55,758 nt of DNA. Source: a virus. Made by a program: the position numbers and the translations under genes. A model generated the notes under the pieces. It did not search any database and was not told the DNA's origin. It saw nothing but the letters and a program-made list of their open reading frames with translations. Location of the stretch: IMG/VR virus record IMGVR_UViG_3300042922_000297, positions 1 to 55,758 of that record, one strand, 5' to 3'. This document shows, piece after piece, positions 36,265 to 55,055 of this stretch (its first letter is position 1; every line of letters starts with the position of its first letter).

Positions 36265-36446
36265 GCCCCGGCGGTCGCCCCGAAATCGGGCCACCCATCA
36301 ACATCCGCCTCGGTGACGACCTCCTCGCCCTCGTAGACGACTACGCCGCGCACAACAGCCAGACCCGCGCACAAGCCATCCGGTTCCTACTCACCGCGGC
36401 CTTGTCCGAACGCCACGGCAGCGCTCCGTCCGGACAGACTCGATGA
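36261..36446 (+). CDS. Ribbon-helix-helix (CopG/Arc-type) regulator
   Basis: 61 residues from GTG (GTGA overlap). P-I-N-I-R-L-G-D-D-L-L-A-L-V-D-D-Y is the ribbon and first helix; the second helix is T-R-A-Q-A-I-R-F-L-L-T. Such dimers bind short operator repeats. No toxin gene follows, so an autonomous regulator is more likely than an antitoxin. Confidence 0.7.
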   Translation: MSPGGRPEIGPPINIRLGDDLLALVDDYAAHNSQTRAQAIRFLLTAALSERHGSAPSGQTR

Positions 36447-49563: not shown

Positions 49564-49775
49564 GCAGCTACCTGACGTCCTACAGCCGACTACTCGATGG
49601 ATTCGTCAGCAACACGGTGCAACGCATGACATCCGATCCCGCAGAGGTCGCCGACCGCGTTGACGCAATCTTCGGGTCACTGGCGCATCAACGTCTGGAC
49701 GAGATCCAACTGACAGCCCTCTTGTCTATCGCTGTGGATCGGCTCGCCACAAGCAAGATCGGAGCACCCGAATGA
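49560..49775 (+). CDS. Hypothetical helical protein
   Basis: 71 residues, ATGA-coupled between the two recombination-module genes. All helical. Unassigned. Confidence 0.6.
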   Translation: MSSYLTSYSRLLDGFVSNTVQRMTSDPAEVADRVDAIFGSLAHQRLDEIQLTALLSIAVDRLATSKIGAPE

Positions 49776-50749
49776 GCCCCCGCTTGAGGAAGCCGAACGG
49801 TATCCCGAACTGGCCCATGATCCTCCTCGAAGGCCCCGACAGTGTGGGGAAGTCCTACCAGTCAGCCCAATTCACCGGCAGCTCGAAGACCGGGCAGGCG
49901 TACTGGCTGGATGTGGGTGAAGGCGCGGCGGACGAGTACATCAACGTTCCCGGCGCTGACTACATGATCGTCGATCACGACGGGTCGTGGCAGGACATCA
50001 TCGCCCAAATCCACGAGATCACCGAAGCCGAGCAGGACTCGAAGAAGCCGGCGGTGCTGGTGGTGGATTCGGCGTCGAACGTGTGGGACATGCTCAAAGC
50101 CTGGGTCAATTCACGTGCACGGAACTCGAAGAACGGGAAACGGACTCTCGCCGCTGATCCTGATGCGGAAATCAAGCCGTCCCCGAATCTGTGGAACGAC
50201 GCCAACGACAGGCACGCCGCCTTCGTCACCGCCCTGTCCCGTTTTCCGGGCATCGTCGTCCTCACTGCACGGGGGAAAGAGACGATGGCTGTGGATGGTG
50301 AGGGTCGGCCGATTCAGGGGCAGCGGGACTACTCCGTGGAGGCCAACAAGTCGTTGCCGTTCAAGGTCAACGCCCACGTCCGACTGTCTCGGGAGGATCC
50401 CCCGGTGGTGGTGTCGTTCCGGTCGGCAACCAACGGTTTAAGGCCGGGCGTGGATAAACCGCAGAGGTACCCCGAGTTCACCCTTGAGCACCTGGTGTTC
50501 GAGGTGATGGGTCTAGAGAAGGCCCAGACGCGGGATGTCACGGAGTTGGTGACGGACGAGAAGGCGTTGGCCGATTCTGCCCGCCTGGAGCTGCGCCAGT
50601 GGTGCGAGGCGAACGGCCTGGACCTGAAGGCGGTGGCTGACCGCTTCTACGAGTCTCAGGAGGAAACCCTTGGGGCGACGGGTGATGCGTCGGCGGTGCG
50701 GAACCTGTTGCAGTCGTTGCAGGACGAACATGCAAAGGCGGCGTCATGA
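49772..50749 (+). CDS. RecA-like AAA ATPase, Sak4 type
   Basis: 325 residues. Walker A G-P-D-S-V-G-K-S (21-28) and Walker B A-V-L-V-V-D-S (94-100), then V-V-L-T-A-R-G-K-E near 165. Sak4-type ATPases are single-strand annealing or strand-exchange partners in phage recombination. The C-terminal third is helical. Confidence 0.85.
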   Translation: MSPRLRKPNGIPNWPMILLEGPDSVGKSYQSAQFTGSSKTGQAYWLDVGEGAADEYINVPGADYMIVDHDGSWQDIIAQIHEITEAEQDSKKPAVLVVDSASNVWDMLKAWVNSRARNSKNGKRTLAADPDAEIKPSPNLWNDANDRHAAFVTALSRFPGIVVLTARGKETMAVDGEGRPIQGQRDYSVEANKSLPFKVNAHVRLSREDPPVVVSFRSATNGLRPGVDKPQRYPEFTLEHLVFEVMGLEKAQTRDVTELVTDEKALADSARLELRQWCEANGLDLKAVADRFYESQEETLGATGDASAVRNLLQSLQDEHAKAAS

Positions 50750-51283: not shown

Positions 51284-51666
51284 GCCGGCCGCAGGGGTTC
51301 ACCCCCGCCACCCGCGCCCTGATCGCCGACCGGGCATCCGACTACAACGGCTGGCCTGTCTGTGAGGTGATGGCGGTCTGTCAAGGCGTCGCAGCTGAGG
51401 CGGTGCATCACAGGAGGCCCAGAGCAGCCGGCGGTAGCAAGCGCCCGGACACGAACAAGGCGGCGAACGGGATCGCCACCTGTAATGCCGACCATGAGTG
51501 GATTGAGTCGCACCGCGAGGAGGCGTTGCTTAACGGCTGGTTGGTGCTGCAATGCGAAGCCCCCGCCACCATCCCCGCCCTCCGGCGCGGTGTCTGGGTG
51601 CTGTTGGACAACGACGGCGGCTGGGTGCGGTGTGCGGCTCCGGGCGTACAGGGAGAAGCATCATGA
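51280..51666 (+). CDS. HNH endonuclease-like protein (accessory region)
   Basis: 128 residues, ATGA-coupled. C-E-V-M-A-V-C, then V-H-H-R-R-P-R-A-A-G-G, N-K-A-A-N-G-I-A-T-C and H-E-W-I-E-S-H follow HNH order (His-His pair, Asn, His). A nicking or homing-type nuclease is likely; a second one besides the terminase-side HNH. Confidence 0.78.
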   Translation: MSRPQGFTPATRALIADRASDYNGWPVCEVMAVCQGVAAEAVHHRRPRAAGGSKRPDTNKAANGIATCNADHEWIESHREEALLNGWLVLQCEAPATIPALRRGVWVLLDNDGGWVRCAAPGVQGEAS

Positions 51667-52427
51667 AAACGTTCTATCTGGGGGCTCATCACCCGAACTG
51701 GCTCGCTAAGGCCGGGGTGCCCCTGTTCATCTCCCATAGGAGGCTACAGGGCTACAAAACGCTCCCCAAGGCCATTGAGCATTGGGCGTTGGATTCCGGT
51801 GGTTTCTCCGAGATTTCGCAGTTCGGGAAGTGGACCACCACACCAGAGCAGTACGTGCAGGCCGTTAAACGCTACGACCAGGAGATCGGGCATCTGGGTT
51901 GGGCGGCGCCGCAGGACTGGATGTGCGAACCAGACATGCTCACCAAAACTGGGCTCACAGTCCGGGAACACCAGCAGCGTACAGTCCGCAACTTCCTCCA
52001 GCTGCAACAACTCTGGGGGGACGACAGCCCGTTCATGCCGGTCCTGCAAGGCTGGACAGTCGACGACTACCTCCACTGTATGGAGTTGTACAACATCGCC
52101 GGTATCGATTTGGAATCTTTCCCGTTGGTGGGTGTCGGCTCGGTGTGTAGGAGGCAAGCGACCGGGGAGATCGGGATGATCTTTCAATCCATCCTCAAGC
52201 ACCAAGACCTGCTGATTCACGGGTTCGGGGTCAAACTCCGCGGCCTCCAAGACTATGGGCACCTACTCAACTCGGCCGACTCCATGGCCTGGTCCTACTG
52301 GGCACGAAGAGACCCCCCCCATGCCGGGCTGCACCGAACACAAGTCGTGTTCAAACTGCATCAAGTACGCGATGTGGTGGCGCGCGAAGGTCGACCGCAT
52401 CCAATACCGCCACCAACTGTCCTTTGA
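51663..52427 (+). CDS. DpdA-family deazaguanine transglycosylase, interrupted at a C-run
   Basis: 254 residues in this frame. Y-L-G-A-H-H-P-N-W, F-I-S-H-R-R-L, W-A-L-D-S-G-G-F-S-E, A-A-P-Q-D-W-M-C-E-P and V-G-V-G-S-V-C-R-R-Q are the conserved blocks of the TGT-like DpdA/DUF7221 family, which swaps guanine for a 7-deazaguanine in DNA. The expected zinc-binding end (P-G-C-T-E-H-K-S-C-S-N-C) is present but one frame away after CCCCCCCC at 52313-52320. With seven C the product would run to 52452. No preQ0-synthesis genes are seen, so the base would come from the host (inference). Confidence 0.75.
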   Translation: MKTFYLGAHHPNWLAKAGVPLFISHRRLQGYKTLPKAIEHWALDSGGFSEISQFGKWTTTPEQYVQAVKRYDQEIGHLGWAAPQDWMCEPDMLTKTGLTVREHQQRTVRNFLQLQQLWGDDSPFMPVLQGWTVDDYLHCMELYNIAGIDLESFPLVGVGSVCRRQATGEIGMIFQSILKHQDLLIHGFGVKLRGLQDYGHLLNSADSMAWSYWARRDPPHAGLHRTQVVFKLHQVRDVVAREGRPHPIPPPTVL

Positions 52428-52874: not shown

Positions 52875-53117
52875 GTGATAGATGATAGCGCGCCACCCGA
52901 CAGGGTTCGAGAGCAGATAGAGGCCGACGCCAGAACCGTCGCCTATCTGGACGCCGAGCAGAACGCACGGGTCATTGCCAGGGTTCGGGAACTCGCCTGG
53001 AAATGGGATTCAGCGACCAGTCTGACGACCGGACAACCGAACACCGTGGCCAAGGCATTCGCTTCGGAACTGTTCTGCGCCCTCGCCATCCACAAGACCG
53101 ACAGCGGTGACGCCTGA
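52875..53117 (+). CDS. Hypothetical helical protein, first gene of replication operon
   Basis: 80 residues from GTG with a strong RBS. Helical, with E-Q-N-A-R-V-I-A-R-V-R-E-L-A-W-K-W. Unassigned. Confidence 0.65.
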   Translation: MIDDSAPPDRVREQIEADARTVAYLDAEQNARVIARVRELAWKWDSATSLTTGQPNTVAKAFASELFCALAIHKTDSGDA

Positions 53118-53482
53118 TGCCCGACTCGATCCCCGCGTTCAAGGTCGGCGACAAAGTGCTGCTCGTCAAACGCACCCACCGCCGCTACGAACCCGAAGCC
53201 GAAATCGAAACCACCGTCACCAAAGTCGGCCGCAAGTACTTCACCGTCGAACACGGACTCCACTACCAAAAGTTCCACCTCGACAGCGGCTTCGAGGTAT
53301 CCAACTACTCGGCGTCCTGCTACGTCACCACACCCGAACGACAAGCCGAAAAGGCCCTTGTGAGCTACCTGGTCGACGCACTGCGCAAGCAGGGTGTCAC
53401 CTTTGATGGACATCACCGGAACTTCACATCCAAATCGCTGAAGGCGATCCTCGGCGCGGTACTCGCAGAGGGCGGTGCCTGA
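53117..53482 (+). CDS. Hypothetical protein, SH3/beta-barrel-like N-terminus
   Basis: 121 residues; start shares a base with the previous stop. F-K-V-G-D-K-V-L-L-V-K then I-E-T-T-V-T-K-V-G-R-K-Y-F-T-V looks like a small barrel (KOW/Tudor-like), followed by a helical C-terminus. Nucleic-acid binding is possible. Confidence 0.65.
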   Translation: MPDSIPAFKVGDKVLLVKRTHRRYEPEAEIETTVTKVGRKYFTVEHGLHYQKFHLDSGFEVSNYSASCYVTTPERQAEKALVSYLVDALRKQGVTFDGHHRNFTSKSLKAILGAVLAEGGA

Positions 53483-54528
53483 TGGCAAGGGATCACACGA
53501 GAGTGAACCTCGACATCTGGGGTGACGACGACTTTCGCGACCTACCCGTCGACTCCCAAAACCTCTACTGGACGCTCTGGACATCACCCGACAGGACATA
53601 CTGCGGCGCCCATGAGTGGAGGCCAGGGAAGCTCTCTCAGTGCGCCGAGGACTGGACGCTGCCAAGGCTTCTCACCGCCGCCACCGTCCTATCTGAGCGT
53701 CTGTTCGTGTTGTTCGACGACGTGACCGAGGAGTGCCTAATCCGGTCATGGATCAAGCACGACGGGCTGTGGCGAACCCCGAACTTGGCAGTGACGATCG
53801 CCAACGCGAGGGCCGCTATGGGGTCGAAAACGTTGCGCGGTGTCGTCGTTCATGAGGTCAAAAAGCTGGTGCGGGCCGAGCCGGAATTGAACGGTTGGAA
53901 GCGCGATGAGGTCGTGAAGATGCTCTCCCAGAGGGACGTTGACCCGGCCGACATACCCCCGTACAACCCCGGACCTAATGGGGGCATTAACCCCAGCTCT
54001 AACCCCACGGTTAACCCCACCGCTAACCCTTACGACCGGAACGGCGTTAACCCCCCGCCTAACCCCCCCTCTACTACAGCTACCTCTACACCTACAGCTA
54101 CAGCTACAAACCCCCCCGCTCACGTCGACTACGAACCGGAACCACCCCAGCGGTACAGCGGGAGACGAACGGGGGCAGAACTCGCACTGGCACGCTTCTC
54201 GATGATCCCAAGCCATCACTCACAGATCGCCCGCGACATCGTCCGCCAGTACAGCGACAGCCTGGATACGCCTATCGACGCTAAGACGGCCCGTGAGATC
54301 GCACAGGCCGTCGATGGCGGGATTCAGGCCGGCCAGTCGCCCGAGGCGATCTCGGCAGGCATCGAGGACTGGGCCAAGTCGGATTCGTTCTCACCCACCC
54401 AGATCGCGAAGTACATCACCAAGGCCGCCGCCCGAAGGCGCAACAACGGCGTCGGGAAACCCACACTCAAAGCCGTCCAGAACGGCCAACTCGCAGAAGA
54501 ACTCATCGCCGAAATGGATGACCAATGA
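53482..54528 (+). CDS. Replication initiator (winged-helix, lambda O/DnaD-like arrangement)
   Basis: 348 residues. The N-terminal ~150 residues (V-N-L-D-I-W-G-D-D-D-F-R-D-L, L-L-T-A-A-T-V-L-S-E-R-L-F-V, W-I-K-H-D-G-L-W-R-T-P-N) fit the winged-helix DNA-binding domain of phage replication initiators. A disordered linker of N-P-x-x tetrapeptides and Thr/Ala repeats (about 160-215) is encoded by the iteron array. A helical C-terminal domain (about 225-348) could bind the helicase loader. The plan is that of lambda O, whose gene carries the origin. Confidence 0.75.
   Translation: MARDHTRVNLDIWGDDDFRDLPVDSQNLYWTLWTSPDRTYCGAHEWRPGKLSQCAEDWTLPRLLTAATVLSERLFVLFDDVTEECLIRSWIKHDGLWRTPNLAVTIANARAAMGSKTLRGVVVHEVKKLVRAEPELNGWKRDEVVKMLSQRDVDPADIPPYNPGPNGGINPSSNPTVNPTANPYDRNGVNPPPNPPSTTATSTPTATATNPPAHVDYEPEPPQRYSGRRTGAELALARFSMIPSHHSQIARDIVRQYSDSLDTPIDAKTAREIAQAVDGGIQAGQSPEAISAGIEDWAKSDSFSPTQIAKYITKAAARRRNNGVGKPTLKAVQNGQLAEELIAEMDDQ
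53964..54066. repeat. 12-bp iteron array, probable origin of replication
   Basis: TAACCCC starts at 53988, 54000, 54012, 54048 and 54060, with TAACCCT at 54024; degenerate units keep the phase at 53964 (CAACCCC) and 53976 (TAATGGG); 54036 is lost. The spacing is exactly 12 bp or multiples. The array lies in the linker of the initiator gene and is followed by a less GC-rich CTACAG-type repeat (about 54070-54110), a candidate unwinding region. Confidence 0.7.
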
Positions 54529-55055
54529 ACCTCAACGCCACACCCGACACCTTGCGGGCAATCGCAAAAGCCCTCCAACGAGCCGGATTCCTCGACGACC
54601 GCATCGGGCAACCCGACAAAGCCCGCATCGCAGCATGGGCCGAACAAATCCAGCCCTACCGTTTCACCGACGGCGACATGCTCGACGGCGTGTCCCGGTA
54701 CTACTCCGGGCCTGTCGATCGGGCGATCGGGATCGGTGACTTGATCCACCACTCGAAGCAGGCCCGCGTGGATCGGACGGCGAGCGAGACCCGGGAGCAG
54801 CGTGAGGCCCGGCAGGAAGCGTTGTCGGCGAAGGCGGCTGAGGACATTGAGGCGTTGGCTGAGCGCAAGGGCTTGAGACTGGGCGCGGACCGGGTGTTTC
54901 TGCGTGGCGGCCCGGATACTGCGAAATCGGTTGTGTGCCCGTGGTGCAAGGCCCGCCCCGGACAGCCGTGCGTCGAACCATCGTCTGGGAAGCCGTTGAC
55001 TCACACCCCGTATCACCCGGGGCGTGTTGATGCATGGGGAGGGAAAACCGCATGA
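54525..55055 (+). CDS. Replication-associated protein with C-terminal zinc finger
   Basis: 176 residues, ATGA-coupled to the initiator. A helical N-terminus (P-D-T-L-R-A-I-A-K-A-L-Q-R-A-G-F), a charged coiled coil (about 85-125) and a zinc finger C-P-W-C-K-A-R-P-G-Q-P-C...H-T-P-Y-H-P-G-R. Its place equals that of lambda P, so a helicase-loading partner is a reasonable inference; no AAA motif is present. Confidence 0.65.
   Translation: MNLNATPDTLRAIAKALQRAGFLDDRIGQPDKARIAAWAEQIQPYRFTDGDMLDGVSRYYSGPVDRAIGIGDLIHHSKQARVDRTASETREQREARQEALSAKAAEDIEALAERKGLRLGADRVFLRGGPDTAKSVVCPWCKARPGQPCVEPSSGKPLTHTPYHPGRVDAWGGKTA

Follow-up and report, generated by a model that had tools for sequence, protein, structure and literature searches.

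A probable phage replication origin formed by 12-bp repeats within a replication initiator gene

Results

The initiator gene and the 12-bp array

Virus record IMGVR_UViG_3300042922_000297 of IMG/VR (positions 1 to 55,758; this whole stretch of 55,758 nucleotides is referred to as the window) contains a gene for a putative phage replication initiator, P0001, which carries an array of 12-bp repeats, or iterons, in the middle of its coding sequence. A preliminary description of the window had proposed that this array is a phage origin, with the layout of the lambda origin inside gene O. We report here that the repeats are conserved as DNA in related phages and that the array, together with a weak tract beside it, very probably constitutes an origin. 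The features of the locus are as follows.

53482..54528, + strand: replication initiator gene P0001 (348 aa), encoding an N-domain, a disordered linker and a helical C-domain
53482..53931, + strand: N-domain portion of the gene (residues about 1-150), winged-helix-like and presumed to bind the iterons
53964..54066, + strand: 12-bp iteron array, assessed with a codon-preserving null and kept as DNA in relatives
54067..54070, + strand: C-rich spacer separating the tract from the last iteron, in relatives usually GGCC (39-linker alignment)
54071..54108, + strand: candidate unwinding element in the form of a triplet/CTACAG tract, with 3'-GAT-GAT-GTC-GAT... on its bottom strand
54172..54525, + strand: C-domain portion of the gene (residues about 231-348), its type also occurring in initiators with an unrelated N-domain
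54525..55055, + strand: G39P-like helicase-loader candidate (176 aa) with a C-terminal phage zinc-binding domain

The protein encoded by P0001 matched the 'replication initiation protein' family PHROG 3171 (E 8.3e-73) over residues 1-227, which span the N-domain and the linker, while its C-terminus matched PHROGs 2149 and 27344. By sequence similarity it is a member of the actinophage replication initiator family PHROG 3171. A tblastn search with P0001 retrieved 319 phage records, with actinobacterial hosts, and the N-domain was matched by 225 phage records. In an AlphaFold2 model the N-domain, with a predicted local distance difference test score (pLDDT) mostly >90, consists of helices followed by a two-strand wing, and the C-domain is helical, with pLDDT of about 80-93 across most of residues 241-320. 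The linker (residues about 161-230) has pLDDT of 43-65 and is predicted to be disordered; it coincides exactly with the stretch that encodes the array. A PDB fold search with the whole initiator model gave no match with E <1, only weak matches mostly of MarR, Zur or Zbeta type, and we therefore use 'winged helix' for the N-domain as a description, not as an assignment. Pfam gave no match to the window initiator at 0.01, and a PDB profile search with the initiator alignment was discarded, having matched only low-complexity Asn-Pro repeats.

The slots of the array read CAACCCC (53964), TAATGGG (53976), TAACCCC (53988, 54000 and 54012), TAACCCT (54024), CCGGAAC (54036, an empty slot) and TAACCCC (54048 and 54060), the step from 54024 to 54048 being 24 bp, with the register kept across the vacancy. 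The five exact copies and the one-change copy at 54024 are all present as first described. Of the two 'remnants' listed with them, that at 53964 differs by a single change, while that at 53976 is only a weak match; a relative (L001) reads TAACGGG at the corresponding slot. The array had also been called strict, which holds for its spacing and not for its sequence, as copies vary and may be inverted. Similarly, the codon preceding Asn, said always to end in T, does so for all six Asn of the array (ATT, TCT, GTT, GCT, GTT and CCT) and also in CCT-AAT; outside the array, TAC and CGG are the codons before two further Asn of the stretch.

Codon choice was assessed for 53962-54066 with 20,000 draws in which the protein was fixed and codons followed the window's own usage. 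Exact TAACCCC occurs five times, compared with 0.23 expected, and no draw reached five (the maximum was four), in agreement with the codon bias suspected earlier. Throughout the 55,758-base record there are four TAACCC-N6-TAACCC pairs, all of which lie in the array, against none for the reversed control.

Related phages keep the repeats as DNA

Loci of relatives were gathered from IMG/VR, GTDB genomes and phage records, a scan of genome contigs contributing 8 loci. Initiators with the N-domain of the window are referred to as family A, for which counts were made on 39 non-redundant linkers against a codon-preserving null of 3,000 draws. TAACCC was found 112 times in these linkers, compared with 10.5 in the null (standard deviation 3.1), the largest of the draws giving 24. 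In 75 copies the T is a third codon base (Asn-Pro), and in 37 the TA forms bases 2-3 (Thr-Pro); the latter follow codons ending in TA, such as CTA, TTA and GTA, that the window's genes seldom use. The reverse complement, GGGTTA, was seen 18 times against 1.1 expected, with the inverted copies in register. As a control, other regions of the same genes had no TAACCC (0 versus 2.2 expected in the N-domain part and 0 versus 1.6 in the C-terminal part). Spacing is also conserved, as 114 of 180 neighbouring pairs are 12 bp apart and most others 24, 25, 36 or 37 bp, the odd values of 25 and 37 marking changes of reading frame.

Some relatives have changed the unit across the whole array. In L031 it is TGACCC in both frames, in L064 and L068 it is TAGCCC, and in Thermobifida phage P1312 it is GAACCCTTCCAG, translated as Glu-Pro-Phe-Gln, or as Glu-Gly-Phe when inverted. 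Across relatives the repeat encodes Asn-Pro, Thr-Pro, Asp-Pro, Ser-Pro, Lys-Gly or Glu-Pro. The preliminary description suggested that selection acts on the DNA, and would have been contradicted by relatives that keep N-P-x-x residues with randomised third positions. The relatives show the opposite, retaining the DNA and altering the protein.

In the Martha group of Arthrobacter phages the array is not part of the initiator gene. Their initiator homologue, 29-31% identical over the N-domain, stops just after that domain, and a 12-bp array of TTAGCCCC with in-register inverted copies, TTAGGGGC, follows directly 3' of its stop in an unannotated gap. The initiator frame and another forward frame contain several stops across this array, and the remaining one stays open no further than 2232 (L242). 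Repeated units and the downstream AACAACAGACAAC tract persist in BarretLemon and Piccoletto with a different unit, in BarretLemon array-wide. We regard Mufasa8 as weaker evidence because its two 12-bp blocks of AACCCTT/AAGGGTT overlap, in another frame, the annotated hypothetical gene gp50; gp50 itself (L241, 1947-2255) is composed largely of the 12-bp array and is probably not a real gene. Because of the switches of frame and strand, the codon-preserving nulls and these unannotated Arthrobacter arrays, we conclude from sequence comparison that evolution preserves the DNA repeats rather than the encoded protein.

A weak triplet tract adjoins the array

The less GC-rich CTACAG-type repeat reported to follow the array is present at 54074-54108, with a G+C content of 47.5%. 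In a thermodynamic stability profile the tract forms the weakest 40 bp of the gene and falls in the lowest 0.08% of the window. Its codons end in A or T in 12 of 15 cases, compared with 4.1 expected, a value reached in none of 20,000 draws. CTACT begins 11 nt beyond the T of the last TAAC in the window, and likewise in most relatives. Aligned on the tract, the 39 family A genes share a layout of iteron, iteron, usually GGCC, CTACT and a run of NCT/NCA codons, the tract starting with CTACT in 38 and with CTACA in the remaining one. Codons of the form NC[TA] make up at least 7 of 8 in 33 of the 39 genes, as happens in 0.04% of codon-preserving draws. The tract is always read in one frame, which leaves some room for mRNA-level causes for the tract alone.

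Just 3' of the tract, the DNA of GGTTACGTAAGT (Gly-Tyr-Val-Ser) is nearly invariant in those relatives among L001-L038 (for example L018) that have a Cys-rich C-domain; it is not present in the window. CACCTAAGTAACGC occupies a comparable position in Arthrobacter phages. The GGTTACGTAAGT element is possibly a third origin element.

The repeat type follows the N-domain

A second set of initiators, family B (Ksquared, Phrann, WinkNick and Whitty), has a different N-domain and is followed by a homologue of the same downstream gene as in the window. Its loci comprise L083 (Ksquared), L084, L085, L086 and about 140 more in L087-L231. In 82 non-redundant members TCGCGA occurs 196 times against 22.6 in the null (standard deviation 4.5), distributed over the frames as 95/50/51, with 76 spacings of 11 bp and 28 of 10 bp. 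It is followed by a tract of GGAACAGG in 8-bp steps (GGAACAG 308 versus 15.7). The TCGCGA and GGAACAGG repeats are each read in all three frames, and the protein string GTGEQGNRGTGEQ of family B is a translation of GGAACAGG.

Profile comparison of families A and B showed similarity at the C-terminus only. Among genes with N-domain A, 70 carry TAACCC-type repeats, none TCGCGA-type, and 6 are untyped; among those with N-domain B, 110 carry TCGCGA-type repeats, none TAACCC-type, and 28 are untyped, these counts including near copies. No crossed combination was found among typed genes. The four largest C-terminal clusters each contain both families, and C-terminal clustering mixes families A, B and C. 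Judged by these sequences, the repeat type follows the N-domain, and C-domains are shared between families. A third initiator variant, Nitzel gp69 (L041, 2253-3206), has a GATGGGGAT-rich linker together with a C-domain and a downstream gene of the window type. Motif subtypes placed on the N-domain tree were clustered (9 changes against a shuffled mean of 16.1), a result that we do not use because near copies contribute to it, the BarretLemon array was mislabelled (default TAA) and no residue was mapped.

The downstream gene and its neighbourhood

The ATG start of the gene at 54525-55055 overlaps the initiator stop (ATGA). The best PDB match to the profile of its family was 1no1_A, the G39P protein of phage SPP1 (E 0.024), and Foldseek with the model of its product also ranked 1no1_A at the top (probability 0.93, template modelling score 0.76 of target, E 0.76), with a root-mean-square deviation of 2.2 A over 67 residues. 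The product also matched PF24623 (E 2e-12). Because the profile and fold matches come together with the gene order, it is likely to be a helicase loader.

Further upstream, 49772-50749 in the early region encodes an AAA_24/Sak4-like ATPase (PF13479), and 51552-52427 a DpdA-family protein (PF23859, E 9e-102), whose true start is probably later than that of the open reading frame and which suggests that this phage modifies its DNA with 7-deazaguanine. Within 1-2 kb, DnaA boxes were limited to one site with 1 mismatch, at 53045, and host DnaA boxes were rejected as the sites in question. The cumulative GC skew has its maximum at 53,007, about 1 kb before the array, and is not used as evidence, since this is a linear record and perhaps a fragment.

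Discussion

We consider with high confidence that 53964-54108 is a phage replication origin located in the initiator gene, of the lambda O or SPP1 oriL type by layout, as repeats within coding sequence, selection at the DNA level and an adjoining weak tract are all found here. The origin DNA would have been placed in the part of the gene that encodes the disordered linker between N-domain and C-domain. Copies of the initiator would bind the 12-bp iterons via the N-domain, the resulting nucleoprotein complex would melt the weak triplet tract at 54071-54108, just past the last iteron, and the C-domain, together with the product of the G39P-like neighbour, would bring the replicative helicase to the opened DNA, from which replication would start.

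Several points weigh against this interpretation. The label 'replication initiator' is an annotation by homology, and we found no experimentally tested member of the window's initiator family. RepA of the mycobacteriophage prophages Miko, Rachaly and Jeeves (Wetzel et al. 2020) was considered as a tested homologue and is a phage initiator of similar length; reading the sequence by eye, no likeness between Miko RepA and the window initiator was visible, and its plasmid data are therefore not evidence here. That report, the one experimental study of the origins of mycobacteriophage prophages that we found, gave no repeats for its RepA phages, and its authors suggested a lambda-like position of the origin, within repA or immediately upstream of it (PMC7157519). 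Moreover, the tract of family B differs, being an 8-bp repeat, hence the unwinding tract is not uniform; the coupling of repeat and N-domain could come partly from physical linkage; and the resemblance to G39P lies below strict significance by each method singly.

The repeats might instead be a mere trace of a low-complexity Asn/Pro linker, produced by ordinary codon choice or slippage, given that the linker is predicted to be disordered and that slippage can create tandem codon repeats. This explanation is extremely improbable: codon-preserving nulls fail to reproduce the repeats, one DNA repeat is read in several frames and orientations with different residues, the Martha-group array stands outside the initiator gene, and the N-domain and C-terminal parts of the genes are devoid of repeats. 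On the codon nulls and the frame switches we reject it. Regulation deserves somewhat more weight, with the sites bound by the initiator, or by some other protein of phage or host, for control of transcription or copy number rather than for the start of replication, as plasmid iterons often serve in autoregulation or handcuffing too. Nevertheless the array is found in mid-gene and not at the promoter of the gene, a weak tract lies at a fixed distance from it and a loader-like gene follows, so that regulation in place of origin function is improbable, while regulation on top of it may occur. Mycobacteriophage parS arrays are likewise direct repeats (an 8-bp motif in RedRock, PMC7157519), which might favour a partition (parS-like) site, or a recombination or packaging site, lying in the gene by chance. 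However, the repeat type tracks the initiator's own N-domain, as expected of an initiator site, and there is very little chance that such an explanation is correct.

If the array and tract are indeed an origin, exact coordinates can be proposed for the origins of many sequenced Mycobacterium, Gordonia, Rhodococcus and Arthrobacter phages, which are possible sources of new actinobacterial replicons. The locus also illustrates clearly how constraints on DNA can dictate a protein linker, here in two or three reading frames. More speculatively, and we regard this as rather unlikely, actinophages may share origin cassettes that are movable, each pairing an N-domain with its cognate 12- or 11-bp iterons, which are co-inherited and joined to interchangeable C-domains and loaders, with the linker as a by-product of origin DNA and the TAACCC version opening a DnaA-trio-like element, thereby reusing the bacterial unwinding code. 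We did not find a published description of these repeats and tract in the open-access literature, subscription journals and preprints being outside the search.

Comparison with known systems

The arrangement of binding sites, G+C-rich spacer and triplet run recalls the unwinding system of bacterial oriC (BUS), where DnaA boxes adjoin a DnaA-trio of 3'-GAT-5' triplets (PMC8287927), and the bottom strand of the window has 3'-GAT-5' nearest the sites. The top strand of the tract resembles the B. subtilis DRE strand quoted in PMC10201434, with which a relative (L002) has TACTTCTACTA in common. In contrast to BUS, the iterons of the window differ from DnaA boxes, and in its tract GAT and other triplets alternate; we thus do not assign the tract to the BUS or the DnaA-trio, and take the resemblance as an analogy that may serve as a lead.

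In lambda, iterons of 18-19 bp lie between the parts of O that code for the N- and C-domains, with a weak tract beside them and the loader gene next. The iterons of the window similarly lie between the parts for a putative DNA-binding N-domain and a C-domain, with an adjoining weak tract and a loader-like gene next, and differ in being 12 bp long. The lambda ori lies within O (PMC6022878), and the comparison first drawn with it was right in layout. Nevertheless SPP1 is the better precedent because the downstream gene resembles G39P, its product giving a poorer match to lambda P (9oa1, E 6) than to G39P. SPP1 carries oriL inside gene 38, followed by the helicase-loader gene 39, and the end of gene 38 at 36,350 and the start of gene 39 at 36,347 give an overlap of 4 nt (PMC6316719). 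Both loci combine direct repeats and an unwinding element, here a candidate one, in the initiator gene with a loader or loader-like gene that follows with a 4-nt overlap. The window differs from SPP1 in its repeat sequence, in the G+C-rich 12-bp units and in having a triplet tract rather than a plain A+T-rich one, and it is by layout, not by protein homology, that we liken its system to those of SPP1 gp38 and lambda O.
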